NCBI GenBank assembly: GCA_003313425.1
Contig: NHZP01000099.1
Location: 16,985 to 80,984, forward strand
DNA length: 64,000 nt
Source: Pseudopyrenochaeta lycopersici
Lineage: Eukaryota; Ascomycota; Dothideomycetes; Pleosporales; Pseudopyrenochaetaceae
Direction of reading: 5' to 3'
The notes beneath the pieces were generated by a model. The model was given only the letters and a program-made list of their open reading frames with translations. It ran no database searches and was not told where the DNA came from. The first letter of the stretch is position 1, and every line of letters begins with the position of its first letter. Shown piece after piece: positions 1-47,812 of the stretch. The translations under genes were made by a program, and so were the position numbers.

Positions 1-117
1 CGTCTCTACAGACACTACGGAAGAACTCCCTTCCTCTAACGCTTCTAAAAGAGATAAGAAGCTTATAGTAGCATTGGCTCCCGCCATAGCACTGCCCTGC
101 CCAGGCTGCGACCCCAT
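1..117 (-). CDS. Partial family protein, segment 0 (exon 1 only)
   Basis: The ATG at 117 opens 39 codons that run off the left edge of the window. The reading matches the first exon of the segment 16 gene (both contain ISFLSLLEALEEGS), but the two are not identical, so this is a further member of the paralogous family. The intron and second exon lie outside the window. A TATA box at about 183-190 fits this start. Confidence 0.6.
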   Translation of the reverse strand, partial: MGSQPGQGSAMAGANATISFLSLLEALEEGSSSVVSVET

Positions 118-182
118 CGCACTGTAGTAGAAAACAACTACATAATTGACAACACTCCGTGTGTTGGGAGGAAACCCCTTCT

Positions 183-503
183 CCTATATACATATCTGAC
201 TTGTGCACCGCCAAGAGCACCTAGTCCCTAGGGAGCGAGAAAACGCATACTCCCTGTGTCTACAGCCATAGACCAATTAGATCAAAGATCTTGTGAGGCA
301 CAGCAATCGTCAGATGACTCACGCTCCACGTGATGCCGTGCTTACTAGTGCTTATGCCTACACTCTAAAGAGTTTAACACTCCGTTGCGATCTCCAATCG
401 CAGGCAAAGCTTACAGGTAAAGTGTCGAGGGTCTCCAGCGCAAGGCTGGTGACCACTTGACAACTTTCTAGTGAAAGGAATCATATATAGCACTCGAAAG
501 TTG
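183..503 (-). promoter_or_regulatory. Control region and origin hairpin, segments 0/1
   Basis: TATA at about 183-190, CTAGTCCCTAG block at 221-231, CCAAT-type block near 270, hairpin AAACTCT/AGAGTTT, second hairpin CCAGC/GCTGG. Origin hairpin 461-503 has a shortened right arm. Predicted nick 478/479 on the minus strand. Confidence 0.75.
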
Positions 504-603
504 TCGGAGAGGCCTGTGCGCACAATCTGCGCCACAGCAACCCATGTCTGCGCTCTCTCGAGCCACACCCCCAGGTGACTCAGCCTGTCTTCCAGCCACA
601 ACA

Positions 604-622
604 AAATTGGACTTAGCCAATT
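604..622 (-). terminator. Terminator-like hairpin with T run, 3' of each gene
   Basis: An AAATTGG-ACTTAG-CCAATTT type hairpin followed on the plus strand by a T run stands 100-150 bases right of almost every nick, in the 3' region of each gene. Other examples are at about 2175-2193, 3730-3748 and 17920-17938. Variants keep pairing (AAATGG/CCATTT, AATTG/CAATT). Its role is unknown; a 3'-end signal for the minus-strand transcript or a replication signal are both possible. Confidence 0.45.
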
Positions 623-913
623 TTTATTTTTTTTTTGGAGAGATGGTGTTCCATCCTGAGGGCTCCCACCCTTACTGACCGAGCTCCGCACCACGATTTC
701 TTCGTTCTTTTTTTTTTTGGCTTCTGTACAGAACCTACATATCTTAGTTAGTCTAGCTTATACTATGTAGGGTACGTATTTAAGTACATTTGTCTTTGGG
801 AATGCGTGCCTCCTACGTTATAACTCACCCGATCTAGGCTACCGCTCTATCCATATACTAATGCCGTTCCATAAGGTAAACAGGCTACCTCCTCTCTTAA
901 CGATACACCCGCT

Positions 914-1691
914 CTACGAACAACTCAGCCAGTCTGCGTCCTGCGGTTTTCGTATTCCAATAGCGTCGCTGAGTCCAGTAAACCAATCTCCCTCTCCAAA
1001 CGGCCATACACCGTAAAATCGATCTAGTCGATGAAATCGTGGCGGGGAATCGTCTACCGATACACAAGGCTTACACATCTTATCCTGTGTGCACCCACAG
1101 TCCACGCTGGTGCTGTACCACCCATTATCCAACAGGTGCAGCACTTCGTCAACAACAAAAGCATCCACTAACTGGCCTTCCGGCGTTGTGATAAGAGGTA
1201 GAATGCGCCGTATAAGCACATCAAGGGCCTCTACTGAGAGCTCCGCAAATACAACTAGACTCCGCACTGCCCCATACCTGAGGATGTCCACCTTAAGGAC
1301 CAGGAGCGACTGCCGGGTCCCACCCTCTGCAATAAACTGCTCATACTCATCTAGACACGTCCTGTGCTGTTCCTCTACACACTGCCAATGAGGCTGCCCG
1401 CTCTCCTTGGTTACCCACCAGGAACACCTTCCCGACGCATTCATGCTGAGCGTAAGAGACACACCGCGTTCCACTAAACCTGTTACTCCGTGAGTTGGCC
1501 TGACCAACTTCTCCCGTGTTTAGAAGACAAAGACACTGACTGTGCACGTGATCCCTCACCAGCTGCTGTTCCATGGGTGTCCCTACGGACAATGCGGAAG
1601 AACTTCCTTCCTGCAACCCATCTATAAGAGATGGGGACAAACTCATGCTAGAGGCAGCCGCCTGTCTATCGTCCATAGTACACGACTCCAT
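914..1691 (-). CDS. WW-KESG family protein, segment 1
   Basis: Two exons, 1541-1691 and 914-1479, are separated by a 61-base intron (GTCAGT donor, CTCAC branch-like site, ACAG acceptor, phase 1). The spliced product is 238 aa. The start at 1691 was chosen because it is the first in-frame ATG downstream of the TATA box at about 1766; a longer reading begins before the TATA box. Exon 1 ends in the family block VRDHVH. Exon 2 has WWVTKESG, the cysteine cluster CGCTQDKMCKPC and the C-terminal WFTGLSDA block. I do not recognise the family. The cysteine cluster could bind zinc (inference). No signal peptide or membrane segment is visible. Confidence 0.75.
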
Positions 1692-1765
1692 CGGAAAGCA
1701 AAACAAGGAAAAAGTTTCCTTAAGGAATGTAGAACCACTCCATGCCAACAGATCCTCTGTTGTAA

Positions 1766-2107
1766 TTATATAGATATCTACCATGGTCTCCGCCAAGGAA
1801 TACTAGTCCCTAGTGGGCGAAGAAACGCACACTCCCTATGTCTACATTCATAGACCAATCAGACAACTGATTGAAAAAAAAAGTGGGCAAGCAGCGATCC
1901 GATGATCAGCACGCGCCCGTGCTCTGCTATGCTTAGTAAGTGCATTGCCTCTAAACTAATTCTAGTTTAACCCTTCGGTACTCGTTCCACTCGTTGGCAA
2001 AGCTTACATGTAAAGTGACAAGGGTAAGGAGCGCAAGGCTCCTGACCACTTGACAACTTTCTAGTGAAAGGAATCATATATAGGCGGTTCGCCACACTAG
2101 AAAGTTG
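1766..2107 (-). promoter_or_regulatory. Control region and origin hairpin, segments 1/2
   Basis: TATA near 1766, CTAGTCCCTAG near 1804, CCAATCAG near 1855. Second hairpin stem GGAGC/GCTCC. Origin hairpin 2054-2107 with full 13-base arms; nick 2071/2072. Confidence 0.75.
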
Positions 2108-2369
2108 AGTCGGGGTCTGTGCGCACGATCTGCGCCACAGCCAACGTGACTCTGCATGGCCTCCAGCCACTGTGAAATTGGACTTAGCCAATTTTTTTGA
2201 AGGTTCGATGTTCCATTAACCACCCTACGCTAATGTCAGCCTTCGCTTCCCAGAATATTGCACAGTACTATGCCGTACCACAGCCATGCATACCTTAACA
2301 ACAGAATTCTACTACCGCACGTACTAATGCTACAAATCAACCATTCTTCCATGGTCTATCCAACAAAAC

Positions 2370-3265
2370 TCAATCATTCCTAAATATAGTCATCCATAGT
2401 AACTCATCTACAGAACAATTACTAAGTGCACCGTCAATAGACAAAGTAGACGATAACGCAATATGCGGACATGTGAGCCAGTCAAGCGCCAACGGTTGTA
2501 CAATTCCAACCGCATCACTGTACCCAGGAAACCAGCCGTCTGGACCACATGGGAATGGCCCACTGAACATGTCCCATCTCGTGAAACGTTGCCGATTAAA
2601 ACGCAACGACAAACAGGACAGACAATGCTCTCGCAATGTGCACCCGCACCCCACGCTACTGGAAAATCCGCCTACGTCTAGCAAACCAAACAGCGTATCC
2701 ACGTCCTCCGCCTGCACAAGATCCCTATCACGTGTATACACACAAGGCAGCACGCTTTTGATGAATACATCAAATGTATCGGAACAGAGCTTCGCGAACA
2801 CAACCATGCTCCGCACTTGATTGTATTCTCCTACAACATCTGCTCTCCAGACAAGAAATGCAGTCAGGGCATTGTCGGCAGACGCACAATTTCCAAAATA
2901 GCACCCACACACATTGGGCGCAGAACACTGGCGAGGAGCCTGCCCGCTCTCCCGAGTGAGCCATACGTCTAAGGCGCCATCCGGCTTTAGATGAAACGTA
3001 AAAGAGATGCCTTGCTCCACCAACTCTGCTACTCCGTTAGTTGGGGGACCTCCGCCCAACTACTAAAACATCTACAAAAAGAGAACATACTGTCTATGTG
3101 CGCCCGCACACAATGTAAGCTAGATGCACTCGCTGCAATAGCTTCCCCTCGAATTCCTTCTACAAGGCAGTCGATCCCCGACAAAACACGCTCCAGCTGT
3201 ACGCTAGAAACACTTCCATCATGCTCCGTAGAGATGTGCACTCTGGGTGACGACGCCATCGTCAT
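2370..3265 (-). CDS. WW-KESG family protein, segment 2
   Basis: Exons 3091-3265 and 2370-3028 flank a 62-base intron with an ideal fungal layout: GTATGT donor, CTAAC branch site, GTAG acceptor, phase 1. The product is 277 aa. The first ATG in frame after the TATA box (about 3319) is at 3265, with a second ATG two codons later; a short out-of-frame ATG lies upstream at about 3297. Here the usual WW is replaced by VWLTRESG. CGCTLREHCLSC and WFPGYSDAVG are present. The stop is followed by only about 300 bases to the next nick. An identical copy is segment 4. Function unknown. Confidence 0.75.
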
Positions 3266-3318
3266 TTGGAGTAAACCAAAAACATCACTTCCATGGGCGG
3301 GGGAGGCCCTCCCCTGCT

Positions 3319-3663
3319 TATATACCGTGATATCCACGCTGTCTTCGCCAAGAGTTACTAGTCCCTAGTTAGCAGAGGGCTGCCCATTCCATGTTGTCTA
3401 CATTCATAGACCAATCAGACAACTGATTGAAAAAAAAAGTGGGCAAGCAGCGATCCGATGATCAGCACGCGCCCGTGCTCTGCTATGCTTAGTAAGTGCA
3501 TTGCCTCTAGTCTTATTCAAGACTAACACTTCGTTGTTCCCTCCAGTCACAGGCTCTGCTTACAGGTAAAGTGTCCAGGGTAGGCAGCGCGAGGCTGCCG
3601 ACCACTTGACAACTTTCTAGTGAAAGGAATCATATATAGGCAGAACGCCACACTAGAAAGTTG
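3319..3663 (-). promoter_or_regulatory. Control region and origin hairpin, segments 2/3
   Basis: TATA near 3319. Second hairpin stem GGCAGC/GCTGCC with loop GCGAG. Origin hairpin 3610-3663; nick 3627/3628. Confidence 0.75.
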
Positions 3664-3780
3664 AGGATGGGCCCGTGCCCTCTTCGCGCCACACCTCCAT
3701 GTGACCCAACATGGCCTCCAGCCACACGGAAATTGGACTTAGCCAAATTTTTTTGATCTTCGCTATTCCATCCTAGAGCC

Positions 3781-3975
3781 TCACTCCCTGGCCATTTTAA
3801 AAAATTCTGCGCATTCTAAGACTGCATCCCTACAACTACCGTAAGCAAAATGTCTAAAGAGTAGGACATTACCAATACTTCCTGTGTGCAAACCTTTGAA
3901 CAGGTAAAATAATAAACCCATTACTACCAATAACTTGGTTACAAGCATATACCACCGTACAAATAAGCGTCCCAT
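3781..3975 (-). CDS. Possible small membrane protein, segment 3
   Basis: A 64-codon reading starts at an ATG at 3975, downstream of the main segment 3 gene. It holds one strongly hydrophobic stretch (LLVVMGLLFYLF) that could cross a membrane. No other segment has an ORF here, and no promoter of its own is visible, so it may be chance or a 3' exon of the larger gene. Low confidence. Confidence 0.25.
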   Translation of the reverse strand: MGRLFVRWYMLVTKLLVVMGLLFYLFKGLHTGSIGNVLLFRHFAYGSCRDAVLECAEFFKMARE

Positions 3976-4086
3976 ACAACTAACTTTAAACACAACCCAT
4001 GTAAAAACTTATCCCATTGCATTATGGAACATACTCCTACATAATAGCCAAATATGTATCTAACCTACAAGGATGGACGTAAGGGC

Positions 4087-4743
4087 CTACAACTTAACGC
4101 TCGACGCAGAACTCGACGACGCGGCAGACCCTGCATACACAGCACCTAGTGATGCTCGAGTATAAAGAAACACGGAAGCGCATTCGCGAAACATACCCAC
4201 AGTACAAACAAACCACCGCGTACCCGGTTTAGAGACTAAAGGACAAGCAGATACATTGACATACCGCTTCTCTTCTAGAGTAATAGGGACCGTCCGTCCG
4301 ACAGAAGACGATGATACTGGCGCGACCAAAAGGCTACTTTCCGAGATATCCGCCCTGGTGAATGGCCTGACAAAATCCATCTGTTCCTTATCCAAGTCAC
4401 CGAAAAGGACATTGCATGTATCGACCTCTCCCGTGACAACTCGCTCTGCAAGGGCAGCGTCCGCGGCAAACGCAATCACATGCACCATACCTGCCGCCAG
4501 GTGAGCATCCGACGCTCCGCTTACAGCCACATACATGTCCGTAACTAGCAGAAGTTTATCAACATCAGAAGGGATACCGCGAGCGGGAGTAAACTCCGTC
4601 ACAATCATCCCAGTCGACACCTCCGGTAGCTCCCCAATCCGCCATGTCTTCTCAGAAAACCCACGAGACAGTTCCACCACGTGACCACGCAACCGAGCCG
4701 TTGCTAGTAAAGGACCCAACTCCGCCGGGGTAGGGCACTCCAT
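4087..4743 (-). CDS. Orphan protein, segment 3
   Basis: An uninterrupted 218-aa reading starts at the ATG at 4743 (MECPTPAELG). The frame is open further upstream only through a GTG, so the ATG is preferred. The TATA box lies at about 4904, and a short out-of-frame ATG reading precedes the start. The protein is unlike the WW-KESG family: no WW, no KESG and no cysteine cluster. It has an alanine-rich middle (HLAAGMVHVIAFAADAALAE) and a serine-rich tail. The flanking control regions are of the common type, so it is a regular genome segment. I do not recognise it. Confidence 0.6.
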   Translation of the reverse strand: MECPTPAELGPLLATARLRGHVVELSRGFSEKTWRIGELPEVSTGMIVTEFTPARGIPSDVDKLLLVTDMYVAVSGASDAHLAAGMVHVIAFAADAALAERVVTGEVDTCNVLFGDLDKEQMDFVRPFTRADISESSLLVAPVSSSSVGRTVPITLEEKRYVNVSACPLVSKPGTRWFVCTVGMFRECASVFLYTRASLGAVYAGSAASSSSASSVKL

Positions 4744-4903
4744 AGTAGTTTCCCAAAGAAACAAAAGACAATTGTTATGAACACGCAACAATAGTATACA
4801 CACCGCGCCACTCCGTGAGCATAAAAAAGAATAATGTTCAGTCCCTACGAACACAAACTACTTGGCATAACCCATCTCCATGGACGGGGAGAGGGCTCCC
4901 CTC

Positions 4904-5245
4904 TTATATGTTGATGTCCATGCTGCCTTTGCCAAGAGACACTAATCCCTAGAAGGCAGGGGCTGCCCATTCCATGTTGTCTATGTCCATAGCCCAATCA
5001 GAATTTTATTCTGAAAAAGAGTGGGCAACCTGAGGTCATCTGACCCGCGACGTCCGTGCTTCGCGTTGCTTACAGGGGGCAATGGCCCTAAACCCCAGGT
5101 GGTTTAACGCTTCGCTGTTCCCTCCAGTCACGGCCAAAGCCTACAATGTAAAGTGGCAAGGGTAACCAGCGCAAGGCTGGTGACCACTTGACAACTTTCT
5201 AGTGAAAGGAATCATATATAGGCGGTTCGCCACACTAGAAAGTTG
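4904..5245 (-). promoter_or_regulatory. Control region and origin hairpin, segments 3/4
   Basis: TATA near 4904. The CTAGTCCCTAG block reads CTAATCCCTAG here. Second hairpin CCAGC/GCTGG. Origin hairpin 5192-5245; nick 5209/5210. Confidence 0.75.
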
Positions 5246-5507
5246 AGTCGGGGTCTGTGCGCACGATCTGCGCCACAGCCAACGTGACTCTGCATGGCCT
5301 CCAGCCACTGTGAAATTGGACTTAGCCAATTTTTTTGAAGGTTCGATGTTCCATTAACCACCCTACGCTAATGTCAGCCTTCGCTTCCCAGAATATTGCA
5401 CAGTACTATGCCGTACCACAGCCATGCATACCTTAACAACAGAATTCTACTACCGCACGTACTAATGCTACAAATCAACCATTCTTCCATGGTCTATCCA
5501 ACAAAAC

Positions 5508-6403
5508 TCAATCATTCCTAAATATAGTCATCCATAGTAACTCATCTACAGAACAATTACTAAGTGCACCGTCAATAGACAAAGTAGACGATAACGCAAT
5601 ATGCGGACATGTGAGCCAGTCAAGCGCCAACGGTTGTACAATTCCAACCGCATCACTGTACCCAGGAAACCAGCCGTCTGGACCACATGGGAATGGCCCA
5701 CTGAACATGTCCCATCTCGTGAAACGTTGCCGATTAAAACGCAACGACAAACAGGACAGACAATGCTCTCGCAATGTGCACCCGCACCCCACGCTACTGG
5801 AAAATCCGCCTACGTCTAGCAAACCAAACAGCGTATCCACGTCCTCCGCCTGCACAAGATCCCTATCACGTGTATACACACAAGGCAGCACGCTTTTGAT
5901 GAATACATCAAATGTATCGGAACAGAGCTTCGCGAACACAACCATGCTCCGCACTTGATTGTATTCTCCTACAACATCTGCTCTCCAGACAAGAAATGCA
6001 GTCAGGGCATTGTCGGCAGACGCACAATTTCCAAAATAGCACCCACACACATTGGGCGCAGAACACTGGCGAGGAGCCTGCCCGCTCTCCCGAGTGAGCC
6101 ATACGTCTAAGGCGCCATCCGGCTTTAGATGAAACGTAAAAGAGATGCCTTGCTCCACCAACTCTGCTACTCCGTTAGTTGGGGGACCTCCGCCCAACTA
6201 CTAAAACATCTACAAAAAGAGAACATACTGTCTATGTGCGCCCGCACACAATGTAAGCTAGATGCACTCGCTGCAATAGCTTCCCCTCGAATTCCTTCTA
6301 CAAGGCAGTCGATCCCCGACAAAACACGCTCCAGCTGTACGCTAGAAACACTTCCATCATGCTCCGTAGAGATGTGCACTCTGGGTGACGACGCCATCGT
6401 CAT
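5508..6403 (-). CDS. WW-KESG family protein, segment 4 (copy of segment 2)
   Basis: This is an exact repeat, shifted by 3138 bases, of the segment 2 gene (277 aa). The intron is 6167-6228. Identity starts at the left hairpin and ends inside the right hairpin loop; beyond it the neighbours differ. The copy is therefore one unit-length monomer placed in a new context. Confidence 0.75.
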
Positions 6404-6456
6404 TTGGAGTAAACCAAAAACATCACTTCCATGGGCGGGGGAGGCCCTCCCCTGCT

Positions 6457-6801
6457 TATATACCGTGATATCCACGCTGTCTTCGCCAAGAGTTACTAGT
6501 CCCTAGTTAGCAGAGGGCTGCCCATTCCATGTTGTCTACATTCATAGACCAATCAGACAACTGATTGAAAAAAAAAGTGGGCAAGCAGCGATCCGATGAT
6601 CAGCACGCGCCCGTGCTCTGCTATGCTTAGTAAGTGCATTGCCTCTAGTCTTATTCAAGACTAACACTTCGTTGTTCCCTCCAGTCACAGGCTCTGCTTA
6701 CAGGTAAAGTGTCCAGGGTAGGCAGCGCGAGGCTGCCGACCACTTGACAACTTTCTAGTGAAAGGAATCATATATAGGCGGAACGCCACACTAGAAAGTT
6801 G
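6457..6801 (-). promoter_or_regulatory. Control region and origin hairpin, segments 4/5
   Basis: Same control region as segments 2/3, up to the hairpin loop. Origin hairpin 6748-6801; the loop changes by one base (CAGAAC to CGGAAC), where segment 5 begins. Nick 6765/6766. Confidence 0.75.
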
Positions 6802-6888
6802 ACGTGGCTGGAGAGTGACCTCCCGCCCACCCACTACTGGGTGAGGACCATGTACCTCCAGAACCGCGCTAAATCGCGCACAGGGCAA

Positions 6889-6915
6889 TTGACAACTTTT
6901 TTTTTGCGCCACACT
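6889..6915. repeat. Vestigial origin-like copy, segment 5 (also 9, 25, 27, 29)
   Basis: The sequence TTGACAACTTT, a T run, then GCGCCACACT mirrors the start and end of the origin hairpin with its centre missing. It sits in a shared block of about 110 bases right of the true hairpin. Matching copies are at about 13203-13229, 38472-38498, 41635-41660 and 44800-44825. Confidence 0.55.
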
Positions 6916-7147
6916 GTGTCGTACTTAGCCAATTTTTTTTTTGAAAAAATACTCTCTGCAGATACTTACAAGTAAATCCTGCAAACAATGAACAAGCAGC
7001 CACCACTGCACAAAAAACCAAAGGCTGCTAAGGTAAAAACGGTCCCCCACACATATTCCATCGTAAATAGAACCATCTACCAATAATACTCACAAATATA
7101 TATGAGACAACACATATACTGTGCCATACAAGATCTTTGCCTCCGCA

Positions 7148-7943
7148 TCAACAATGCGTACACAACCCTAAGGGCGACGCCCAAACATCTAAACAGGTTA
7201 ACCAGTCAAGCCTCGACGGATGCACCATACCGACAGCATCACTGCACCCAGAAAACCATCCATGGGGCCCATCAGGACACACTCCGCTAAACTTGTCCCA
7301 ACGTGTAAACCGCTGATGCGTAATGGGCAAGCTGCAACAGGGCTGACAAGACGCCTGCAAAGTGCACCCACACGAAAATGATCCAGAAAAGCCTCCGCAA
7401 TCCAACACGGAGAATAATCCATCAATAGTAAAGGCATCCGCCAAGGCCCCTTCCGATACCCAAACACTGGGCAATACGCGATGCCAAAACATCCGCAAGG
7501 TGATCAAGGAGAGTTGCGCAAACGCGACAACGCTCCGCATCTGCATAGCGCTAACAGCAATATCGACCTTCCAGACGAGTAGCGCTTTAGGGGAAACACA
7601 ACCAAAACATGAGGTAGAGAAGGTAGCCGAGCATCCGCACACTACCTTCGAACCACACGTTGGGGGGAGCTGCCCACTCTCCTTGGTGAGCCACCAACAG
7701 TACTCGCCCTGCGACTTGACATGACACGTCACCGACACTTGCTGTTCCACAAGGTATACAACCATGTTAGTTGTTCCCCCAACCAACCCAATGGACACGT
7801 GACTTACAGCAAACGTTACACATTAGCCACTCAATGGCTGCAGCGTCCCCTACAAAGGGAGGGCCATACATGCCCTTACTAAGCCTATCAGCCGTCAAGA
7901 GGAGCGCGTTCTCTGTGCGCTCTGCTACGCGTGGCAACTCCAT
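7148..7943 (-). CDS. WW-KESG family protein, segment 5
   Basis: Exon 1 (7808-7943) begins at the first ATG after the TATA box and ends at a GTAAGT donor. The family's usual acceptor is lost: the AG before the LVEQ block reads AC here. The next AG that keeps the frame is at 7738-7739, giving exon 2 as 7148-7737, a 70-base intron and a 241-aa product lacking LVEQ. Exon 2 has WWLTKESG, CGCTLQASCQPC and WFSGCSDAVG, plus an extra CGCSATFSTSC stretch. An identical copy is segment 25. The splice assignment is inference; the exons are clear. Confidence 0.65.
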
Positions 7944-8038
7944 AGCCTACACAAAACCATGCGGGTCAGAAAACTACCCGATCTGACTGTCCGTTGAGGG
8001 AGTGCACCACCTCCGTGACAACAGAGGAACTGTTGTGG

Positions 8039-8378
8039 TTATATACGTCCCTTCCTTGTGCGCCGCCAAGAGCACCTAGTCCCTAAGAGGCAGAACCATG
8101 CCAATTCCATGCGTCCATATTCATAGACCAATCAGACTAAAGCTCTGAAGTAGAGTGGGCAACCCATGGTCAGATGACCCGCACTGTCCGTGCTTCGTGT
8201 TGCTTACTAAGTGCATGGCCCCTAAACTACTCGTAGTTTAACGCTCCGCTGCCTAGTCCCTAGGCGTGCCCTGCTTAATTGTAAAGTGGCAAGGGTAACC
8301 AGCGCAAGGCTGGTGACCACTTGACAACTTTCTAGTGAAAGGAATCATATATAGGCGGTTCGCCACACTAGAAAGTTG
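8039..8378 (-). promoter_or_regulatory. Control region and origin hairpin, segments 5/6
   Basis: TATA near 8039. Second hairpin CCAGC/GCTGG. A second CTAGTCCCTAG copy lies close to the hairpin at about 8255. Origin hairpin 8325-8378; nick 8342/8343. Confidence 0.75.
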
Positions 8379-8668
8379 AGGATGGGCCCGTGCCCTCCCC
8401 GCACCGCCACGCGAAATTGGACATAGCCAATTTTTGAGAGATGGTGTTCCATCCTGAGGGCTCCCACCCTTACTGACTGACCTCCGCCATACAAATTCTT
8501 CGTTGTTTTTTTTTGGGATTCTATACCAAACCTATACAATGTAATTAGTATAACAATTTGTACTTAAACAATAAACTGTATAAACCAAAATCCTTACTTA
8601 CTGTAATCAAACATACTACATACTGGGACGCCGTCAATGTACTAAGCACATATAACTACCTAGACAAC

Positions 8669-9511
8669 CTAGGTACACATGCAGCGACAAGGCCAGGGAG
8701 ACAGCGTACAACACGCGACATTCGCAGCCTCCGTTACGCCAGTCCACCAGTGCTCTTGGCCGAGAGGAAAAACACCCTCAAAACAATCTTGCCACACGAA
8801 GCGTCGCTCTCCCATACAACGCCCTTCGCACCGCTTACAGGCTCCACCGTAAAAACTGCAACTGCAGCCATCACTACGTGAGAACAGTCCCTGTCCTAGA
8901 GCAGAGAAGAGTTGAACACACTCAGCCGCCAACTCATCCCTTGCGCCACTACACAGCCGTTGTAGATGTTCAAGCACCCGCTCCTCGACAACCACGAACG
9001 CATCCCGCGATAATAAAGCAAATGCAACTGCGCAATACGCACCAGTTACACACATCCTAAGTACAATATAGGCCTGTGGAAATACTCGCGCAAACTCCGT
9101 AGGCAAACAAACAGTACACTGTCCGTCTATTCCAGACGAAGACCTACGTCCACTCTCTCGTACAAGAGACCACTTCACCGTACCATCACCATGAACGGAA
9201 CACGTGACAGACACATCGCACCGTGCGAAAACTGTGACCTATTAGCGACGCTTGTTTAACAACAACGCCTGTGTCTACGCCATGCACTTACCAGCGCAAT
9301 TCTGTCGCACAAAAGAGACCTCCGCGGCCTTCTCAGGCCAATCGTTAACAAACTCACCAGGCAGTAGCATGGAGAGTTTACTACGAAGAAGCCATTGCAC
9401 CCACTCCGCATCATGTTCCACACAGACAGTCCAAAGCTCCGCAAGACCCTGGAGAACAGGGCGCATACGCCGGATACTGCGACGTCCGCCCGGCAAGGAC
9501 TCAATATCCAT
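8669..9511 (-). CDS. Divergent WW-KESG family protein, segment 6
   Basis: Exons 9292-9511 and 8669-9231 flank a 60-base intron (GTAAGT donor, CTAAT branch-like site, CACAG acceptor, phase 1). The product is 260 aa, with the start at 9511 (MDIESLPGG). It belongs to a diverged branch shared with segments 19 and 28: exon 2 opens with a VSVTC block, and KESG has become RESG (WSLVRESG). The cysteine cluster (CSCSFYGGACKRC) and WWTGVTEA are retained. The promoter has a weak TATA (ATAAAG, about 9603-9612). Confidence 0.65.
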
Positions 9512-9602
9512 AGGAACAGCAGCCGCTGCCTCTTGAAACTGTGCGAAGATGAGTTGATTCTCCAAAAAACAACTCCTATCTACATGAGCGGCATCCGCCC
9601 TC

Positions 9603-12678: not shown

Positions 12679-12745
12679 CCTGCTACTATTGCTACACAAA
12701 GACACCACCTCCGTGGTAGAGAGAAGAGGCAGAGGGCACACCCCT

Positions 12746-37946: not shown

Positions 37947-38090
37947 CGCACCTAAGCTATGTACAACATGTACTGTCGTATGACGCTTATCTAAGCTTCA
38001 TCATATTAACTCCATACCCTTCGCTCCCGAAGAAAAAAAGGACATACCTTAACGCACTCCTTGCGTGATTGCACAGTGGCGCAAACCACT

Positions 38091-38384
38091 TTTATATTGA
38101 AAAGCGTCTATCCAGCAATTGGACTACGCCAAGAGAAGATCATTCCATAACAAGCGATGAACCGCCCACTCCATGTGTTCCCGCCTCCACGTGACAAAAA
38201 GGCTAGCGCTTACAGGGGGCAGCGCCTCTAGGCTTTAAAAAGCCTAACCCTCCGGTGCTATCTCCAATAGCAGGCCCTGCTTAACGGTAAAGTGGCAAGG
38301 GTAACCAGCACGAGGCTGGTGACCACTTGACAACTTTCTAGTGAAAGGAATCATATATAGGCGGAACGCCACACTAGAAAGTTG
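38091..38384 (-). promoter_or_regulatory. Core-type control region and origin hairpin, segments 24/25
   Basis: ATATAAAA near 38091; CCACGTG block at about 38165-38222 shared with the Rep and capsid segments. Second hairpin CCAGC/GCTGG, loop ACGAG. Origin hairpin 38331-38384; nick 38348/38349. Confidence 0.75.
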
Positions 38385-38730
38385 ACGTGGCTGGAGAGTG
38401 ACCTCCCGCCCACCCACTACTGGGTGAGGACCATGTACCTCCAGAACCGCGCTAAATCGCGCACAGGGCAATTGACAACTTTTTTTTTGCGCCACACTGT
38501 GTCGTACTTAGCCAATTTTTTTTTTGAAAAAATACTCTCTGCAGATACTTACAAGTAAATCCTGCAAACAATGAACAAGCAGCCACCACTGCACAAAAAA
38601 CCAAAGGCTGCTAAGGTAAAAACGGTCCCCCACACATATTCCATCGTAAATAGAACCATCTACCAATAATACTCACAAATATATATGAGACAACACATAT
38701 ACTGTGCCATACAAGATCTTTGCCTCCGCA

Positions 38731-39526
38731 TCAACAATGCGTACACAACCCTAAGGGCGACGCCCAAACATCTAAACAGGTTAACCAGTCAAGCCTCGAC
38801 GGATGCACCATACCGACAGCATCACTGCACCCAGAAAACCATCCATGGGGCCCATCAGGACACACTCCGCTAAACTTGTCCCAACGTGTAAACCGCTGAT
38901 GCGTAATGGGCAAGCTGCAACAGGGCTGACAAGACGCCTGCAAAGTGCACCCACACGAAAATGATCCAGAAAAGCCTCCGCAATCCAACACGGAGAATAA
39001 TCCATCAATAGTAAAGGCATCCGCCAAGGCCCCTTCCGATACCCAAACACTGGGCAATACGCGATGCCAAAACATCCGCAAGGTGATCAAGGAGAGTTGC
39101 GCAAACGCGACAACGCTCCGCATCTGCATAGCGCTAACAGCAATATCGACCTTCCAGACGAGTAGCGCTTTAGGGGAAACACAACCAAAACATGAGGTAG
39201 AGAAGGTAGCCGAGCATCCGCACACTACCTTCGAACCACACGTTGGGGGGAGCTGCCCACTCTCCTTGGTGAGCCACCAACAGTACTCGCCCTGCGACTT
39301 GACATGACACGTCACCGACACTTGCTGTTCCACAAGGTATACAACCATGTTAGTTGTTCCCCCAACCAACCCAATGGACACGTGACTTACAGCAAACGTT
39401 ACACATTAGCCACTCAATGGCTGCAGCGTCCCCTACAAAGGGAGGGCCATACATGCCCTTACTAAGCCTATCAGCCGTCAAGAGGAGCGCGTTCTCTGTG
39501 CGCTCTGCTACGCGTGGCAACTCCAT
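38731..39526 (-). CDS. WW-KESG family protein, segment 25 (copy of segment 5)
   Basis: Exact repeat of the segment 5 gene, shifted by 31583 bases (exons 39391-39526 and 38731-39320). It shows the same lost acceptor. The copies lie at distant places in the array with different neighbours on both sides. Confidence 0.65.
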
Positions 39527-39621
39527 AGCCTACACAAAACCATGCGGGTCAGAAAACTACCCGATCTGACTGTCCGTTGAGGGAGTGCACCACCTCCGTG
39601 ACAACAGAGGAACTGTTGTGG

Positions 39622-39949
39622 TTATATACGTCCCTTCCTTGTGCGCCGCCAAGAGCACCTAGTCCCTAAGAGGCAGAACCATGCCAATTCCATGCGTCCA
39701 TATTCATAGACCAATCAGACTAAAGCTCTGAAGTAGAGTGGGCAACCCATGGTCAGATGACCCGCACTGTCCGTGCTTCGTGTTGCTTACTAAGTGCATG
39801 GCCCCTAAACTACTCGTAGTTTAACGCTCCGCTGCCTAGTCCCTAGGCGTGCCCTGCTTAATTGTAAAGTGGCAAGGGTAACCAGCGCAAGGCTGGTGAC
39901 CACTTGACAACTTTCTAGTGAAAGGAATCATATATACACAAGAAAGTTG
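39622..39949 (-). promoter_or_regulatory. Control region and origin hairpin, segments 25/26
   Basis: Copy of the segment 5/6 region up to the loop. Origin hairpin 39908-39949 has the shortest right arm, supplied by segment 26; nick 39925/39926. Confidence 0.75.
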
Positions 39950-40352
39950 ACAGAATGGGCCCGTGCCCATCACAACCCGTCTGTGCGCAGAACCCGCCAC
40001 AGCTAACGTGACCCTGCGTGACTGTCAGCCACAGGGAAATTGGACTTAGCCAATTTTTTGAAGACTCGATGTTCCATCCTGAGGGCTCCCACCCTTACTA
40101 ACCAAGCTCCGCCATACAAATTCTTTGTTACTCTTCCTACTGCCGTATAACCCCTACATTATAACGTTAGTATATATTAGACTAAATAGTAACTCAATTT
40201 TCAAGGAAAATAAATAAAATAAAAGACATATACAACACATACTTGCTATTCAAAAATCTACACCCATAACCATAGCTTTAAAGGCGCCACCGGTCCCTTA
40301 CTAAGACATGACACTGACTGAATACGTCCTCCTATAACAACCTGCCTATTCT

Positions 40353-41137
40353 TCATAGCCGGCACGTTAACCACTGCTCTCCTTCCGGCTGCATTATCCC
40401 TACTGCATCACTGATCCTAATAAACCAATAAAGCTTTGACACCGGCCTTACAGAAGAAAATCCTTCTGAACGATTAAACCGCCGTTTTTCATAAGACACT
40501 GACTCGCACTCTTTGCAACGCTTATCGAGCTTGCACCCGCAGTCCACGGAAGTTCCATAACACCCAAGGTCTAACCCGTAAAACACTGTAGTAACAACAG
40601 AGACATCCGCCGTCTTGCCGGAGGGCAATACGAGAAGAGGTAGGACGCGCTGCACAACCACCTCCAGTACCTCTACCGAGAGCTTCGCAAAAGTAACATG
40701 GCTCCGCACCACCCTATCCTGATGGAGCGCCTCCACCTTGAGGACCAGGAGCGACTGCCGGGTAACCCCCTCTGCACACAGTTCCTTGTGGTACTGTAAA
40801 CACTCCGTGTGCTTCTGAGAAACGCATTCGCGAGGAAGCCGTCCACTCTCTTTGGTCACCCACCAAGATTGTCTCCCCGACAAATCCAAGGAGAGAGTGA
40901 GAGAAATACCGCGTTTCATGAATACTGCACTCATGTCAGATAGGCTCCCCTACTGCCATCGCCAACGACACAAAGAGATCACCTACCCGGCACGTGACCC
41001 CTCACTACGTTAAACTCTGCCTCTGTCTCTACCGACACCGCGCAAGAAGATCCTTCTTGCAGCCCATCTATCGTCGATGGGAGGATAGGGGTGCCAGCGA
41101 AACCCGCCTCAGCCTCTTGCCCAGTGTGCGATGCCAT
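40353..41137 (-). CDS. WW-KESG family protein, segment 26
   Basis: Exons 40987-41137 and 40353-40924 flank a 62-base intron (GTAGGT donor, CTGAC, GTGCAG acceptor, phase 1). The product is 240 aa, starting MASHTGQE. Exon 2 has WWVTKESG, CGCKLDKRCKEC and WFIRISDAVG, so the usual glycine after WF is changed. It is close to segments 1, 10 and 16 in exon 2 (TRQSLLVLKV). TATA is at about 41205-41212. Confidence 0.75.
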
Positions 41138-41204
41138 CGCAGTGTAGAAAAGATGAAACTACACAAAGTAGAACACTCCGTGCGCGGGGAGGGGGCTCCC
41201 CTCT

Positions 41205-41547
41205 TTTATATGTCGATGTCTATGCTGTCTTTGCCAAGAGACACTAGTCCCTAGCAGGCAATAATGTGCCCCTTCCATGCTGTCTACGTTCATAGACCAA
41301 TCACAGTACTGATTGAGAGAAAAGTGGGCAAGCAGTGATCATCTGACCCGCGACGTCCGTGCTCTGCTTTGCTTACAGGGGCTTTTGCCTCTAGCCTCTA
41401 AAGAGCCTAACCCTTCGGTACTCCCTCCAGTCGTGGCAACGCATACAATGTAAAGTGTCAGGGGTCAAGGAGCGCAAGGCTCCTGACCACTTGACAACTT
41501 TCTAGTGAAAGGAATCATATATAGGCTGCGCCTCACTAGAAATGTTG
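41205..41547 (-). promoter_or_regulatory. Control region and origin hairpin, segments 26/27
   Basis: TATAAAAG near 41205, CTAGTCCCTAG near 41244. Second hairpin GGAGC/GCTCC. Origin hairpin 41495-41547 with altered right arm; nick 41512/41513. Confidence 0.75.
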
Positions 41548-41837
41548 ACTGTGGCTGGAGTGTGACCTCCCGCCCACCCACTTCTGGGTGAGCACCATGT
41601 ACCCCAAAACGACGCTAAATCGCGCACAGGGCAATTGACAACTTTTTTTTGCGCCACACTGTGTCGGACTTAGCCAAATTTATTCGAAAATTTTATGAAC
41701 CGCATAACGTACCAATGTCGCCGCAGTACATATATTACCAAAGAAATATAAGACTACCAAAATACTTGCCTTGTCTACGTCAAAAACAGCCCGCACTTCA
41801 CCATCACAGCTATACGCTGAAGGTGTCGCATCATACA

Positions 41838-42661
41838 TTAACACCATAACGCACCATGGACATACCTGCACGATAACCAATCTACCCGCGATGGAAACAC
41901 CAACCCAACAGCATCGCTAAATCCATTAAACCATCTATGCGATGGGAGCGGAAATGCACCGCCAAATACATCAAGACGTGCAAACCCACGCTGCCACCGA
42001 CCTAGCAACAGACACGAAGTGCAACACTTTCCAACTGTGCATCCACAAAGGGCACCACTAGAGAAATGCCCATTCTCTACAGCGCGGAACACCGCCTCCA
42101 CTTCATCCGCCCTAGCAGCATCAGCTGCAATCATAGTAACGAGTGGCAGTACCTGCCGCACAAACACATTGAGCATATCGACAGACAGCTCCGCAAACGC
42201 AACGAAGCTCCGCAGTTGATCGTATTCTCCCACAACATCGACCTTCCAGACGAGACGCGCCCGAGACGCACCATCCAAATCGCCAGAACCCTCATAGCGA
42301 TCTAAGCAGCTACAGTCTTTAAGCCTACCACAAGACATGGGAGGCTGCCCGCTCTCCTTGGTGAACCACCAGACCCGTTCCCCGTTCGCCTGCACGTGAC
42401 ACGTAAGAGAAATATCGTGTTCTACCAACACTACATCAACATCAGTTACTCTGAGTTTCAACCAACTCCACGGAGAAACACAACAGGGTACCCACTGTGA
42501 GAGTATTCTTCAATAATCCCTAACTCGTCTTCAGTCCCTGCAAACGGGTCCCCCTTGCAACCCTCTTCGAGGGCGTCCATAACAAAAGACGTATACTCCG
42601 CTACACTTGGCCGGTCCACAGGCCTCCTAACGATATAAAACTCTCCGGGATGCAACTCCAT
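41838..42661 (-). CDS. WW-KESG family protein, segment 27
   Basis: Exons 42496-42661 and 41838-42430 flank a 65-base intron (GTGGGT donor, AACTGAT branch-like site, GTAG acceptor, phase 1). The product is 252 aa, starting MELHPGEF. Exon 1 has DPFAGTEDELGIIEEYSH. Exon 2 has WWFTKESG, CGCTVGKCCTSC and WFNGFSDAVG. An identical copy is segment 29. Confidence 0.75.
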
Positions 42662-42748
42662 CGCCCTGAACAACGCGTTCAAAAGAGAAAAGAGACGAAA
42701 CTACACATAATAGAGAACACTCCGTGAGCGGGGAGAGAGCCTTCCCCT

Positions 42749-43109
42749 CTTATATGTCGATGTCCATGCTGTCTCTGCCAAGAGCACCTAGTCCCTAGCA
42801 GGCAATGTGGTGCCCCGTCCCTGCGTCTACGTTCATAGACCAATCAGATAAGAACTCTGATAGAGTGTGGGGCCAAGGGTGTCTCCCACGTGCAACCCAG
42901 CGTCATCTGACTCACACGGTCCGTGCTGCGTGTTGCTTACAGGGGGCAGCGCCTCTAGCCTACAAGTAGTCTAACCCTTCGGTACTCGTTCCACTCGCGG
43001 GCCCTGCTTAGGGTAAAGCCGTCGTGGTCCCGAGCGCAAGGCTCTCGACCACTTGACAACTTTCTAGTGAAAGGAATCATATATAGGCTGCGCCACACTA
43101 GAAAAGTTG
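42749..43109 (-). promoter_or_regulatory. Control region and origin hairpin, segments 27/28
   Basis: TATAAG near 42749, CTAGTCCCTAG near 42788. Second hairpin GAGC/GCTC. Origin hairpin 43057-43109; nick 43074/43075. Confidence 0.75.
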
Positions 43110-43379
43110 AGTTCTGGCCTGTGCGCTCTCCGCGCCACACCCCCAGGTGACTCTGCATGGCCCTCCAGCCACAACAAAATTGGACTTAGCCAATTTTTAT
43201 TTTTTTTGATGTTCCATTTTAAGGGCTCACACCCTTACCAACCAGCCTCCGCCATATTATATAATATTATAATATACTGCAAAACACATCCTATACAAAA
43301 AAGATCCCTTAGTTAGCGTCTACACCCCAAATGAAAATTGCAGTCCCTGCACAAAACAAAATCAATAACATACCGTAAA

Positions 43380-44354
43380 CTATCCACTGTCTCTATCTCC
43401 AACGGACTCCCTACTACATATGTTATGGCAAGGACAACGCATCCACGATCCAAAACCGTCTCCAAGATCGCCAACCGCATCCGAAACACCAGACCAATAC
43501 GGCGGGAGGTTGCAAGTGTCAAACTCAGGACACGGGGCATAGCGCCAACTGCGATACCGCACTGCATTCTCATCCTCGCCAGGTCGCAGGGCGCGCGACG
43601 ACATACAAGGTAACCAGTGACAAATATGAACAACTGCCTGCCAGTTCCCCTCACGTACATGCTTGAGCAACACAGGCAAAATTTGATCCTCAAACCACTG
43701 GACGCTTACTAACGTCAGAGGGGCCACAAGAACCTGACATTGTCCAGGTCGGCCTAAGACTTTTACAACAAAAACTGCACTCCGTGCCCTTAACTCAAGC
43801 GCCCCACTCACTTGACCAAGAAGCCTAACGAATCCCTCACAAAGGAGAGGCAAGCAACCGCTCTCCTTGGTCAGCCACCATTGAATGCCCGGTTCCGGAG
43901 AGACCTCACAGGTCACAGACACCTCAGCGCACCTAAACACTGTACTCCGTCAGCGACGTCCGCATGACAGACTCTAAACGAGCAGAGAAATAACACACAA
44001 TCTACGAACCGTTTTACAAACGAGACTGCCCGATCCCCTGCGCGGAACACAACTGGTTGCGCAGGAAACAGAGAAGCTACCCATAGCTGAACAAGCTCCT
44101 GTCCCCAGATTGCAAAGCCCTCCGCGTTATCGCTGTCCGTTACCAAACTTGCAAGAACTACGTCAGGTGGGCGTCCACCCCACCGAAAAGACGGAGCCGC
44201 ACCGGCTGCTGCACGCTTCGCGACTGCGCCCAACGACGGCGCACGGGGAGAAGACGTTGCTAAATAAACTCAGCAATCTGCTCCGCAAACAATCCCTATA
44301 CAGGGCTCACGACCTACCGGACATCCGTGTATCCGGACGTAATGTACCATTCAT
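43380..44354 (-). CDS. Three-exon divergent WW-KESG family protein, segment 28
   Basis: The long second exon has no ATG, but a short first exon solves this. Exon A 44318-44354 (MNGTLRPDTRMS) has a GTAGGT donor; intron 44260-44317 ends TTTAG; exon B is 43999-44259. The family intron 43940-43998 (GTGTGT donor, CTGAC, ACAG) leads to exon C 43380-43939. All junctions are phase 1 and the total is a whole number of codons, giving 285 aa. Exon C has WWLTKESG and YWSGVSDAVG but lacks the usual cysteine cluster. No clear TATA box is seen upstream. Confidence 0.55.
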
Positions 44355-44439
44355 TGCGGGATGCAATGAGAGGAAAGAGGAGGGACAGAAAGGCCTGCCA
44401 GGCCCCTCGATGCCCGCTCGCCAAGCACAAGTCCGTGCA

Positions 44440-44712
44440 CCCAATCAGATGAAAAATCTGACAGCATGTGAGGGCAGGGGTGCTCCTCACGTGCAAAGCA
44501 GCGTCATCTGACCCGCACCGTCCGTGCTCTGCTTTGCTTACAGGGGCTCTTGCCTCTAGCCTACAAGTAGTCTACCGCTTCGCTACTCCCTCCAGTCGTG
44601 GGCAACGCATACAGGTAAAGTTGCAAGGGCTGGCAGCACGAGGCTGCCGACCACTTGCTCAACTTTCTAGTGAAAGGAATCATATATAGGCTGCGCCTCA
44701 CTAGAAATGTTG
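44440..44712 (-). promoter_or_regulatory. Control region and origin hairpin, segments 28/29
   Basis: CCAATCAGATG block near 44440; no clear TATA or CTAGTCCCTAG. Second hairpin GGCAGC/GCTGCC, loop ACGAG. Origin hairpin 44660-44712 begins CTCAAC as in segments 6/7; nick 44677/44678. Confidence 0.65.
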
Positions 44713-45002
44713 ACTGTGGCTGGAGTGTGACCTCCCGCCCACCCACTTCTGGGTGAGCACCATGTACCCCAAAACGACGCTAAATCGCGCACAGGGCAAT
44801 TGACAACTTTTTTTTGCGCCACACTGTGTCGGACTTAGCCAAATTTATTCGAAAATTTTATGAACCGCATAACGTACCAATGTCGCCGCAGTACATATAT
44901 TACCAAAGAAATATAAGACTACCAAAATACTTGCCTTGTCTACGTCAAAAACAGCCCGCACTTCACCATCACAGCTATACGCTGAAGGTGTCGCATCATA
45001 CA

Positions 45003-45826
45003 TTAACACCATAACGCACCATGGACATACCTGCACGATAACCAATCTACCCGCGATGGAAACACCAACCCAACAGCATCGCTAAATCCATTAAACCATC
45101 TATGCGATGGGAGCGGAAATGCACCGCCAAATACATCAAGACGTGCAAACCCACGCTGCCACCGACCTAGCAACAGACACGAAGTGCAACACTTTCCAAC
45201 TGTGCATCCACAAAGGGCACCACTAGAGAAATGCCCATTCTCTACAGCGCGGAACACCGCCTCCACTTCATCCGCCCTAGCAGCATCAGCTGCAATCATA
45301 GTAACGAGTGGCAGTACCTGCCGCACAAACACATTGAGCATATCGACAGACAGCTCCGCAAACGCAACGAAGCTCCGCAGTTGATCGTATTCTCCCACAA
45401 CATCGACCTTCCAGACGAGACGCGCCCGAGACGCACCATCCAAATCGCCAGAACCCTCATAGCGATCTAAGCAGCTACAGTCTTTAAGCCTACCACAAGA
45501 CATGGGAGGCTGCCCGCTCTCCTTGGTGAACCACCAGACCCGTTCCCCGTTCGCCTGCACGTGACACGTAAGAGAAATATCGTGTTCTACCAACACTACA
45601 TCAACATCAGTTACTCTGAGTTTCAACCAACTCCACGGAGAAACACAACAGGGTACCCACTGTGAGAGTATTCTTCAATAATCCCTAACTCGTCTTCAGT
45701 CCCTGCAAACGGGTCCCCCTTGCAACCCTCTTCGAGGGCGTCCATAACAAAAGACGTATACTCCGCTACACTTGGCCGGTCCACAGGCCTCCTAACGATA
45801 TAAAACTCTCCGGGATGCAACTCCAT
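45003..45826 (-). CDS. WW-KESG family protein, segment 29 (copy of segment 27)
   Basis: Exact repeat of the segment 27 gene, shifted by 3165 bases, with the intron at 45596-45660 and a 252-aa product. Segment 28 separates the two copies. Confidence 0.75.
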
Positions 45827-45913
45827 CGCCCTGAACAACGCGTTCAAAAGAGAAAAGAGACGAAACTACACATAATAGAGAACACTCCGTGAGCGGGGAG
45901 AGAGCCTTCCCCT

Positions 45914-46263
45914 CTTATATGTCGATGTCCATGCTGTCTCTGCCAAGAGCACCTAGTCCCTAGCAGGCAATGTGGTGCCCCGTCCCTGCGTCTACGTTCA
46001 TAGACCAATCAGATAAGAACTCTGATAGAGTGTGGGGCCAAGGGTGTCTCCCACGTGCAACCCAGCGTCATCTGACTCACACGGTCCGTGCTGCGTGTTG
46101 CTTACAGGGGGCAGCGCCTCTAGCCTACAAGTAGTCTAACCCTTCGGTACTCGTTCCACTCGCGGGCCCTGCTTAGGGTAAAGCCGTCGTGGTCCCGAGC
46201 GCAAGGCTCTCGACCACTTGACAACTTTCTAGTGAAAGGAATCATATATACACAAGAAAGTTG
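45914..46263 (-). promoter_or_regulatory. Control region and origin hairpin, segments 29/30
   Basis: Copy of the segment 27/28 region up to the loop. Origin hairpin 46222-46263 takes the short right arm of segment 30; nick 46239/46240. Confidence 0.75.
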
Positions 46264-46665
46264 AGGGAAGGGGCCCGTGCCCAACACAACCCATGTCTGC
46301 GCTCCCCGCGCCACAGCCCCCATGTGACCCAGCATCGCCTCCAGCCACACAGGAATCGGACTTAGCCAATTTTGAGACAGAATTGATGGAACATCAACAG
46401 GGTCGACACCCCCCACAATATAGCTTCGGTATAAATAATAATGCATTGTTCGCACAATCCAATAACACCTACATAATACAGTCAGCACTCATTCCTGCGT
46501 ACAACTTTTGTCTTAGAAAAAGAAGTTAAGAAAACAAAAAGAGCGACAAAATAAAAACATTGCGCACAATCCTCCACATGCTACCGCCCTCCTTGTATAT
46601 CCATAACTAAAGAACATCCTCTCTACTACTCACAAATATTACCACTGTTCGTTACAACAGCCAGA

Positions 46666-47366
46666 CTACATCCGTCGTGTTAATGATACAGTATGGTTGG
46701 GGAGCGGAGGCGACAATTCCGCGGCCAAAGCTACCTCAAAAGCTCGCGCAACGCTCTCTACACAGCGATCACACGCCGTAAACCCACGGGCACCAAGGAA
46801 AATGGACTTAGCCATTTTTTTGAGAGATGGTGGTTCCTCCGATATCTGCGGAGACCCTAGACCTGCCAAGCGTGTCTCAAAAAACTCCATCACCTTGACT
46901 GAGTTCCCAAGCAGGGCCCCATCCTGCTGCACAAGACGCGGCAAAACACCCGTTACAACCGCATCCAGCGCCTCCACCGAAAGATCCCCAAACGCAACCA
47001 TGCGACGTGGGGTGCCATCCGGTTTTACGGTCTCCACCTGCAACAAAAGCCGTGAGAACGGCCCACAGATGCGCCCCCGCCTGAGACAATCACAGCTCTC
47101 CAAGCCCTCAGAACTGACGCTGGGTGGGACGGTAAGCCACCAAACCTGTTCACCATCCCGCTTCACATGGCAAGTCACAGAAGTCTTCTGTTCCACAAGA
47201 TCTACACAACTGTTAGTTGGGGGACCCCAACTCGGGAAGAGAACATCCACATACGTTGAATGTGCATCCGCACCCCTTGAATTTGGCTTTCTGTCCCTAC
47301 AAAAGGCTCCGCCTTACTACCAGACACCAACGGGTCTATACACTCTGCACACCCTTCGAGAACCAT
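46666..47366 (-). CDS. WW-KESG family protein, segment 30 (copy of segment 12)
   Basis: Exact repeat of the segment 12 gene, shifted by 28434 bases, with the intron at 47202-47254 and a 215-aa product. It includes the captured terminator-like element (46798-46836). This is the last segment before the telomere junction, and it is full length. Confidence 0.65.
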
Positions 47367-47508
47367 CTCTCTCTTGGGAACTCACACGTGACGTTACGTG
47401 TTCGACCTACCAACGATGGTATCCTTCCCAGGAAGTACGGCTACCGCAACGTAAAAAAAAAAACTACATTGTGTAGAACACTCCGTTACAACAGCTCCAC
47501 TGTTCATG

Positions 47509-47812
47509 TTATATACATCTCTGCCTTGCGCAATGCCAAGACCACCTAGTCCCTAGCAGGCAATGGGCTGCCCCGTCCCTGCGTCTATGTCCATAGCCCA
47601 ATCAGAAGCCTGATTGAAAGAAAATGCGGCACAGCAGCGTCATCTGACACGCCACGTCCGTGCTCTGCTCTGCTTACAGGGGCTTATGCCTCTAAACTAA
47701 TTCTAGTTTAACCCTTCGGTACTCCCTCCAGTCGTGGCAACGCATACGTGTAAAGTGTCAGGGGTCAAGGAGCGCAAGGCTCCTGACCACTTGACAACTT
47801 TCTAGTGAAAGG
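47509..47812 (-). promoter_or_regulatory. Control region with broken origin hairpin at the telomere junction
   Basis: Copy of the segment 12/13 region: TATA near 47509, CTAGTCCCTAG near 47545, second hairpin GGAGC/GCTCC. Only the left arm (47795-47807) and five loop bases of the origin hairpin remain. At 47813 the sequence changes to telomere repeats. Confidence 0.85.

Follow-up and report, generated by a model that had tools for sequence, protein, structure and literature searches.

Chromosome ends of the fungus Pseudopyrenochaeta lycopersici carry arrays of virus-like units that are attached to telomere repeats inside a replication-origin loop. We studied a window of 64,000 nucleotides, bases 16985-80984 of the 80,984-bp contig NHZP01000099.1 (C99), in a genome assembly of 62.7 Mb in 188 contigs. 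Over positions 1-47812 of the window, 30 whole units follow one another head to tail in a single direction, together with one more that the window edge cuts. The telomere joints of such arrays lie at the predicted nick of a rolling-circle replication protein (Rep), pointing to a possible new route by which viral DNA becomes attached to chromosomes. On balance, a CRESS (circular Rep-encoding single-stranded) DNA element related to segmented genomoviruses, with about 100 one-gene segments of ~ 1.58 kb, has probably been joined to the chromosome ends by Rep.

Origin hairpin and telomere joints

A scan of the window detects 30 origin loops on one strand, with loop starts ranging from 474 to 46235, and a 31st origin hairpin, severed within its loop, closes the array at 47812. 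The distances between successive hairpins set the unit lengths at 1556-1607 bp, and the G + C content of the units is 49%. The loop reads TATATATGATTCC, giving the stem-loop origin typical of elements with a CRESS-DNA Rep; the nick is placed within it according to the joints. Folding of four single copies as DNA hairpins yields z scores of -5.4, -2.2, -6.1 and -5.0, and for the second of these (-2.2), 8 of 200 shuffles folded equally well. The region around the nick is common to all 1225 pairs among 50 sampled unit types. A preliminary description of this DNA had proposed 30 unit-length segments with a common origin hairpin and control region, at least 25 of them different, with one gene per unit and a single Rep gene, and this picture is borne out: full-length identity within five pairs of units reduces the 30 units to 25 types, and one Rep open reading frame (ORF) is confirmed, in unit 22. 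A lone reverse-strand match to the origin loop (56522, - strand, ≤ 3 substitutions) lies in AT-rich DNA beyond the array and probably arose by chance.

At the end of the array, 47812, the cut falls within the hairpin loop, and in gene sense the DNA reads ...AGGGTT followed directly by CCTTTCACTAG. Joints of this kind, on the viral 5' side, are recognized by GTTCC in the origin loop. The genome holds 41 of them, 40 in the form AGGGTTCC, while the other listed origins read ATTCC. Joints on the viral 3' side, TATATATGATT followed directly by AGGG, number 25 at ≤ 1 mismatch, compared with 0 for the control. When the 5'-side joints are paired with the 3'-side coordinates, 19 of the 41 fall between two units, joint L047 with its trimmed 3' side makes a 20th, and 21 are left. 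We read 30 joints, 15 of those 21 among them; a scripted classification sorted the 30 into 14 unit-to-unit and 16 non-viral joints, or 15 and 15 once L047 is moved. All 30 contain between one and four exact telomere repeats, and 28 are distinct in flank or repeat number.

The predicted nick is TATGATT^CC (the caret marks the cut), although the shared TT leaves a two-base ambiguity, from GA^TTCC to GATT^CC. By position, this cut matches the geminivirus nick TAATATT^AC and the TACTCTT^CA of the segmented genomovirus BcssDV1. On the outward strand, the 3' end of the telomeric G strand is followed by the viral 5' end. Since the phase ...GGGTT is fixed, the joints suggest that the telomere end mimics the viral acceptor. 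Inner flanks of the joints fall into at least two apparent subtelomere families (L036, L038, L052 and L055 versus L037, L039, L053 and L060), and in each family the cut lies two or three repeats inside the telomere.

Telomere repeats also occur on the outer side of the arrays, at 9 of the contig termini examined (15 starts and 4 ends). The terminal tracts span 29-149 bp in nine measured cases. Four of nine outer caps begin at the viral 3' nick end and five within a unit; two more nick-end caps are recognizable by position on C119 and C92. The units are seen as chromosomal, in contig-end arrays joined to telomere repeats at the origin loop.

Genome-wide distribution and unit order

A 30-nt hairpin pattern has 851 matches in the genome at ≤ 3 mismatches, with 0 for the reversed control, and a 21-nt origin pattern has 907 at ≤ 2 mismatches, corresponding to ~ 1.4 Mb of units. 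Of the 851 hairpin matches, the 100 listed by place all occur in runs at contig ends, where the genes point outward; the other 751 were counted only. On C61, matches extend in one orientation from about 1 to 265 kb, with continuity checked by spacing up to 42 kb. The outward rule has exceptions, because C101 harbors an inverted whole copy of unit 10 (L090:4169-5735; 100% identity over 1558 bp), with its hinge in the origin hairpins.

For a closer comparison of types we used 70 complete units, from the window (29 joint-to-joint) and nine fetched stretches, a non-random sample of 8% of the total. Joint-to-joint stretches are single whole units in 70 of 71 cases (mean 1579 bp, standard deviation 11 bp). 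The remaining one comprises two whole units, one of them inverted; this 3174-bp stretch in L090 had been considered as a missed joint, and its first unit is the inverted one. The 70 units represent 50 types. The earlier count of at least 25 segments was thus right about there being many types and too low in number. Copies of the same type are identical except for one pair at 99.87%, and all other alignments at > 90% coverage show only 65-69% identity. Chao1 type richness is 106, or 100 when bias-corrected (70 units), values that two extra units from C101 would lower slightly; dividing ~ 900 units by 7-13 copies per type gives a similar number. Together, these figures suggest roughly 100 segment types in the genome.

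A 40-base probe from unit 2 finds 13 exact copies and 14 of one sibling, all sharing the same three changes, which means that close siblings missed by the sample exist; a probe from unit 3 finds seven copies, every one exact. The two sibling lineages of unit 2 are each uniform across contigs C23, C61, C65, C77, C81, C83, C89, C98 and C101, and perhaps stem from two strains of the element.

The order of units is strongly mixed. Among 59 neighbor pairs, 58 are distinct and none joins like with like, and, of 20 same-type pairs, one has a successor in common. The units were apparently added one by one from a mixed pool.

Features of the window array

Coordinates below are window positions, with the strand in parentheses.

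1..478 (-) partial unit, cut by the window edge; the array continues to the telomere at C99:1
479..2071 (-) unit 1, family gene
2072..3627 (-) unit 2, family gene; 40-base probe, 13 exact genome copies and 14 of a sibling
3628..5209 (-) unit 3, orphan ORF of 218 aa (4087-4743); probe, 7 exact copies
5210..6765 (-) unit 4, identical to unit 2
6766..8342 (-) unit 5, family gene
8343..9912 (-) unit 6, family gene
9913..11483 (-) unit 7, without long ORF, outside the family
11484..13080 (-) unit 8, family gene (ORF 327 aa)
13081..14646 (-) unit 9, without long ORF, outside the family
14647..16227 (-) unit 10, family gene; identical copy inverted in C101
16228..17805 (-) unit 11, without long ORF, outside the family
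17806..19378 (-) unit 12, divergent family gene
19379..20960 (-) unit 13, family gene
20961..22535 (-) unit 14, family gene (ORF 274 aa)
22536..24117 (-) unit 15, identical to unit 13
24118..25685 (-) unit 16, family gene (ORF 291 aa)
25686..27256 (-) unit 17, family gene
27257..28863 (-) unit 18, possible capsid ORF 27493-28689 (398 aa); 8 identical genome copies
28864..30443 (-) unit 19, family gene
30444..32032 (-) unit 20, family gene
32033..33624 (-) unit 21, family gene
33625..35197 (-) unit 22, Rep ORF 33729-34907 (392 aa); 9 identical genome copies
35198..36779 (-) unit 23, orphan ORF of 197 aa (35686-36279)
36780..38348 (-) unit 24, family gene
38349..39925 (-) unit 25, identical to unit 5
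39926..41512 (-) unit 26, family gene
41513..43074 (-) unit 27, family gene
43075..44677 (-) unit 28, family gene
44678..46239 (-) unit 29, identical to unit 27
46240..47812 (-) unit 30, identical to unit 12; terminates in the loop of the cut origin hairpin
47811..48280 (+) inner joint (L059): origin loop, directly three exact CCCTAA-type repeats, then degenerate telomere-like repeats

Beyond the joint, pieces of ORFs with DEAD and Helicase_C matches adjoin the array (51962-52933, - strand); we take them to resemble fungal telomere-linked helicases. The GC skew reaches -0.99, an extreme strand bias, beside the joint (48001-50000), and a block of 25% GC lies at 56001-58000. A 636-codon open frame with glutamine-rich repeats and no Pfam match occupies 59414-61324 (-).

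Genes of the units

The Rep ORF of unit 22 (392 aa) is intact. Its alignment with 13 relatives displays motifs of a rolling-circle HUH endonuclease and of a superfamily 3 (SF3)-type helicase. Pfam Rep models match the protein only below their cut-offs. A protein search yielded the 13 relatives (best E 6e-127), some of them from Pyrenophora seminiperda and P. tritici-repentis. The longest contig of five relatives measures 1394-1710 bp, which may hint at a circular form. The Pyrenophora proteins, together with the helicase ORF in the subtelomere, point to a filamentous ascomycete as host. A profile of these Rep proteins matches six geminivirus-type Rep chains in the PDB (E 2.5e-6 to 5.8e-6). By its sequence, the predicted product of unit 22 is a CRESS-type Rep of geminivirus/genomovirus-like character. 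A second Rep, with 46% identity over 122 residues, occurs at three places in the genome.

Window copies included, nine Rep units and eight units of the unit 18 type show 0 differences over the full unit. Zero substitutions between copies point to a spread that was probably recent. Close to the ends of C99 and C166, another two Rep copies show 1 and 8 gap columns relative to the window Rep unit, again with 0 substitutions. Decay was considered for these copies; as the changes are indels only, assembly error at the contig ends is likelier.

The ORF of unit 18 (398 aa) has a basic stretch near its start. This capsid-like feature makes a capsid possible as its product, by guess, and no homologue turned up in any database search, including the Pfam scan. 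Of the probable capsid gene put forward in the preliminary description, the ORF is there, its identity being a guess. The same description had counted more than twenty other genes, a figure that finds no support, as most types encode a single protein family: 35 of the 50 sampled types by iterated profile search, and 18 of the 25 window types by our own tally. By that tally, five of the 25 window types lack a detected relative. Many members of this orphan family share cysteine pairs and the motifs WW.TKESG and SDA.G. A search for relatives returned none of 7999 scored candidates at E ≤ 0.01, and a Pfam scan of 33 members gave single-member matches only (best Fer2, E 0.00026), which we take as chance.

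The short ORFs of many family members raise the question of whether they are pseudogenes. Of the 35 family types, five lack the anchor motif; in the remaining 30 testable types, a branch-point-plus-AG pattern lies upstream of the conserved part in 23, against 4.3% for a control at random places. This upstream pattern makes it probable that the short ORFs are exons of spliced genes, which counters the pseudogene reading. Type S27, in three pieces, may be broken. No reverse transcriptase emerged when pieces of six ORFs and the 33 family members were scanned with Pfam. Long antisense ORFs lie opposite the genes of units 12 and 30 (18368-19042 and 46802-47476, +, 224 aa) and of unit 18 (27682-28503, +, 273 aa), and may be due to chance.

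Proposed mechanism and alternative explanations

In the mechanism that we propose, Rep would nick the origin loop behind TATGATT on the gene-sense strand and retain the 5' end (CC...). It would then pass this end to a 3'-OH, usually that of the same segment, which would yield a circle. Occasionally the acceptor would be a chromosome end terminating in telomeric ...GGGTT, adding a single-stranded segment of unit length; passage of the Rep-bound 5' end to a telomeric 3'-OH is suggested because the polarity of the joints fits. The added segment would leave a ...TATGATT-3' end, the natural acceptor for a next segment, so that direct unit-unit joints would form, and the ~ 866 direct origins (907 less 41) would come from repeated use of this native acceptor. 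Alternatively, telomerase may extend the new end, giving (AGGGTT)n joints or a new telomere cap. We infer Rep as the joiner, the pool of unit-length segments, the healing of 3' ends by telomerase, and particles. More tentatively, and with less confidence than in the joining itself, we suggest that a single-stranded DNA virus or virus-like element of ~ 100 segments stores a segment library at the chromosome ends of its host, Rep transferring strands singly onto telomeric 3' ends, and that most segments carry variants of one fast-diverging family.

Several points weigh against this explanation. The evidence is assembled sequence, in which the arrays, the whole-unit spacing, the identical copies, the shuffled order, the position and polarity of the joints, the tracts of one to four repeats and the intact Rep are seen directly; circle, particle and new addition rest on inference. 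The joint search patterns favor exact 5' ends, and the inner ends of the arrays on C61, C81, C98, C131, C136, C155 and C166 lie outside the sequence read. Telomere addition is not confined to the nick, because the viral 3' end at L047 is trimmed by six bases and five of the nine outer caps begin within a unit. One unit, in C101, is inverted. Recombination between ends also acts, because some arrays share a joint and neighbors (2 of 30 joints duplicated, one neighbor pair repeated). The short tracts require short or newly healed ends or later shrinkage, and the model leaves them unexplained. Finally, the exact repeats of two joints, L059 (in the window) and L044, border on degenerate telomere-like DNA.

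The traces of recombination bring up the idea that viral DNA integrated long ago at a few telomeres and was then spread by ordinary subtelomere recombination, with no need for Rep activity since. Subtelomeres do recombine, and the two duplicated joints agree in both flanks. Copying in blocks would however preserve neighbors, whereas 58 of 59 pairs are distinct, successors are shared in 1 of 20 cases and 28 of 30 joints differ, so we consider this origin quite unlikely. Nor do the units look like inert chromosomal gene duplicates, a reading that the preliminary description had left room for: copies are identical over full units, their order is shuffled and the joints sit at the predicted nick. 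Unlikely as well, if the least so of the alternatives, is a domesticated or transposon-like telomere element, whose Rep-driven segments lengthen chromosome ends with no particle or infectious virus. Arrays under telomere caps at many ends and the unproven identity of the capsid would suit such an element. Yet unit length is uniform (standard deviation 11 bp) across otherwise unrelated types, as would be expected if packaging or replication selected for size; the genome has a telomerase gene, and telomere upkeep needs no large diversified gene family.

That reads of free segments were falsely assembled to each other and to telomeres seems very improbable to us, even though the arrays lie at contig ends, the weakest part of assemblies, and the Rep copies nearest the ends of C99 and C166 differ by indels only. 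The order of units varies over tens of kilobases, telomere caps stand outside the arrays, and several subtelomeric flanks are met at one nucleotide and in one telomere phase; even an artefact would imply a free virus of many segments. We give the least credence of all to rolling-circle copying of viral circles onto the ends (roll-and-spread) or integration of concatemers. Tandem arrays at telomeres and circular relatives would be in keeping with it, but runs of the same unit are predicted, and we reject rolling-circle concatemers for the lack of any like neighbors among the 59 pairs.

Significance and comparison with known systems

If Rep-mediated joining to telomeres is correct, single-stranded DNA elements own a defined route onto chromosomes, and telomere-attached retroelements have a DNA-only counterpart. 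Segments inherited on chromosome ends would be a possible answer to the multipartite-virus problem, since a segment library would free a highly divided genome from having to transmit all its segments together. We are not aware of a virus or transposon that uses a rolling-circle Rep nick for joining telomeres, nor of a DNA virus that approaches 100 segments. The novel part appears to be the mode of life at chromosome ends, while the replicon parts are a variant of the segmented genomovirus-like kind. Searches of the openly licensed literature, with subscription journals and bioRxiv outside it, listed no CRESS segments at telomeres, and two protein scans and one hairpin scan of IMG/VR found no free relatives.

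Foreign or circular DNA is added at telomeres in the integration of human herpesvirus 6 (HHV-6) and in the roll-and-spread of yeast circles. HHV-6 carries telomere repeats of its own, and roll-and-spread repeats one circle, unlike the arrays described here, where none of 59 neighbor pairs is alike. Nanoviridae resemble the element in having many one-gene segments with a common stem-loop. They infect plants with about eight segments of ~ 1 kb, a size that the units of 1556-1607 bp exceed, and no chromosomal copies of them are known.

Telomere attachment itself has a parallel in the Terminons of bdelloid rotifers (PMC6431247). These elements join onto G-rich telomere ends, are arrayed head to tail with short stretches of telomere repeat, like the tracts here, and in some cases carry Rep genes. 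They are reverse-transcriptase elements of up to 40 kb that attach by complementary repeats, where we propose a cut DNA origin. CRESS Rep copies are also present in the chromosomes of Tuber melanosporum, with 42 endogenous geminivirus-like Reps (PMC3198968). They are described as recently amplified, but as an interspersed transposon with inverted terminal repeats, and the main text of that paper lacks the words telomere and tandem.

The Genomoviridae have a genome of 1.8-2.4 kb with Rep and capsid protein (CP) ORFs on one circle (PMC10731770). Here each 1.56-1.61-kb unit has one gene, a departure from the one-circle layout that segmented members make as well. With this layout absent and the capsid only putative, we do not claim membership in the family. 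One gene per equal-sized unit with a common region and a stem-loop origin, as seen here, characterizes segmented genomoviruses. BcssDV1 carries a single gene on each of its circular segments (1669-1707 nt) and has long and short common regions, a stem-loop origin (TACTCTT^CA, compared with TATGATT^CC here), a GC content of 45.8-49.1% (49% here), a putative Rep intron and hypothetical proteins without relatives. Its four segments were seen in particle preparations, whereas we find ~ 100 types in chromosome-end arrays, mostly of one family; telomeres go unmentioned in the BcssDV1 text consulted. Fusarium graminearum gemytripvirus 1 (FgGMTV1, PMC11708013) likewise has fungal circular single-stranded DNA segments, for Rep, CP and another protein, but three in number, and the consulted text does not mention telomeres. 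By analogy, the units would work like a segmented genomovirus of the BcssDV1 and FgGMTV1 kind, while their placing resembles that of telomere-attached elements.

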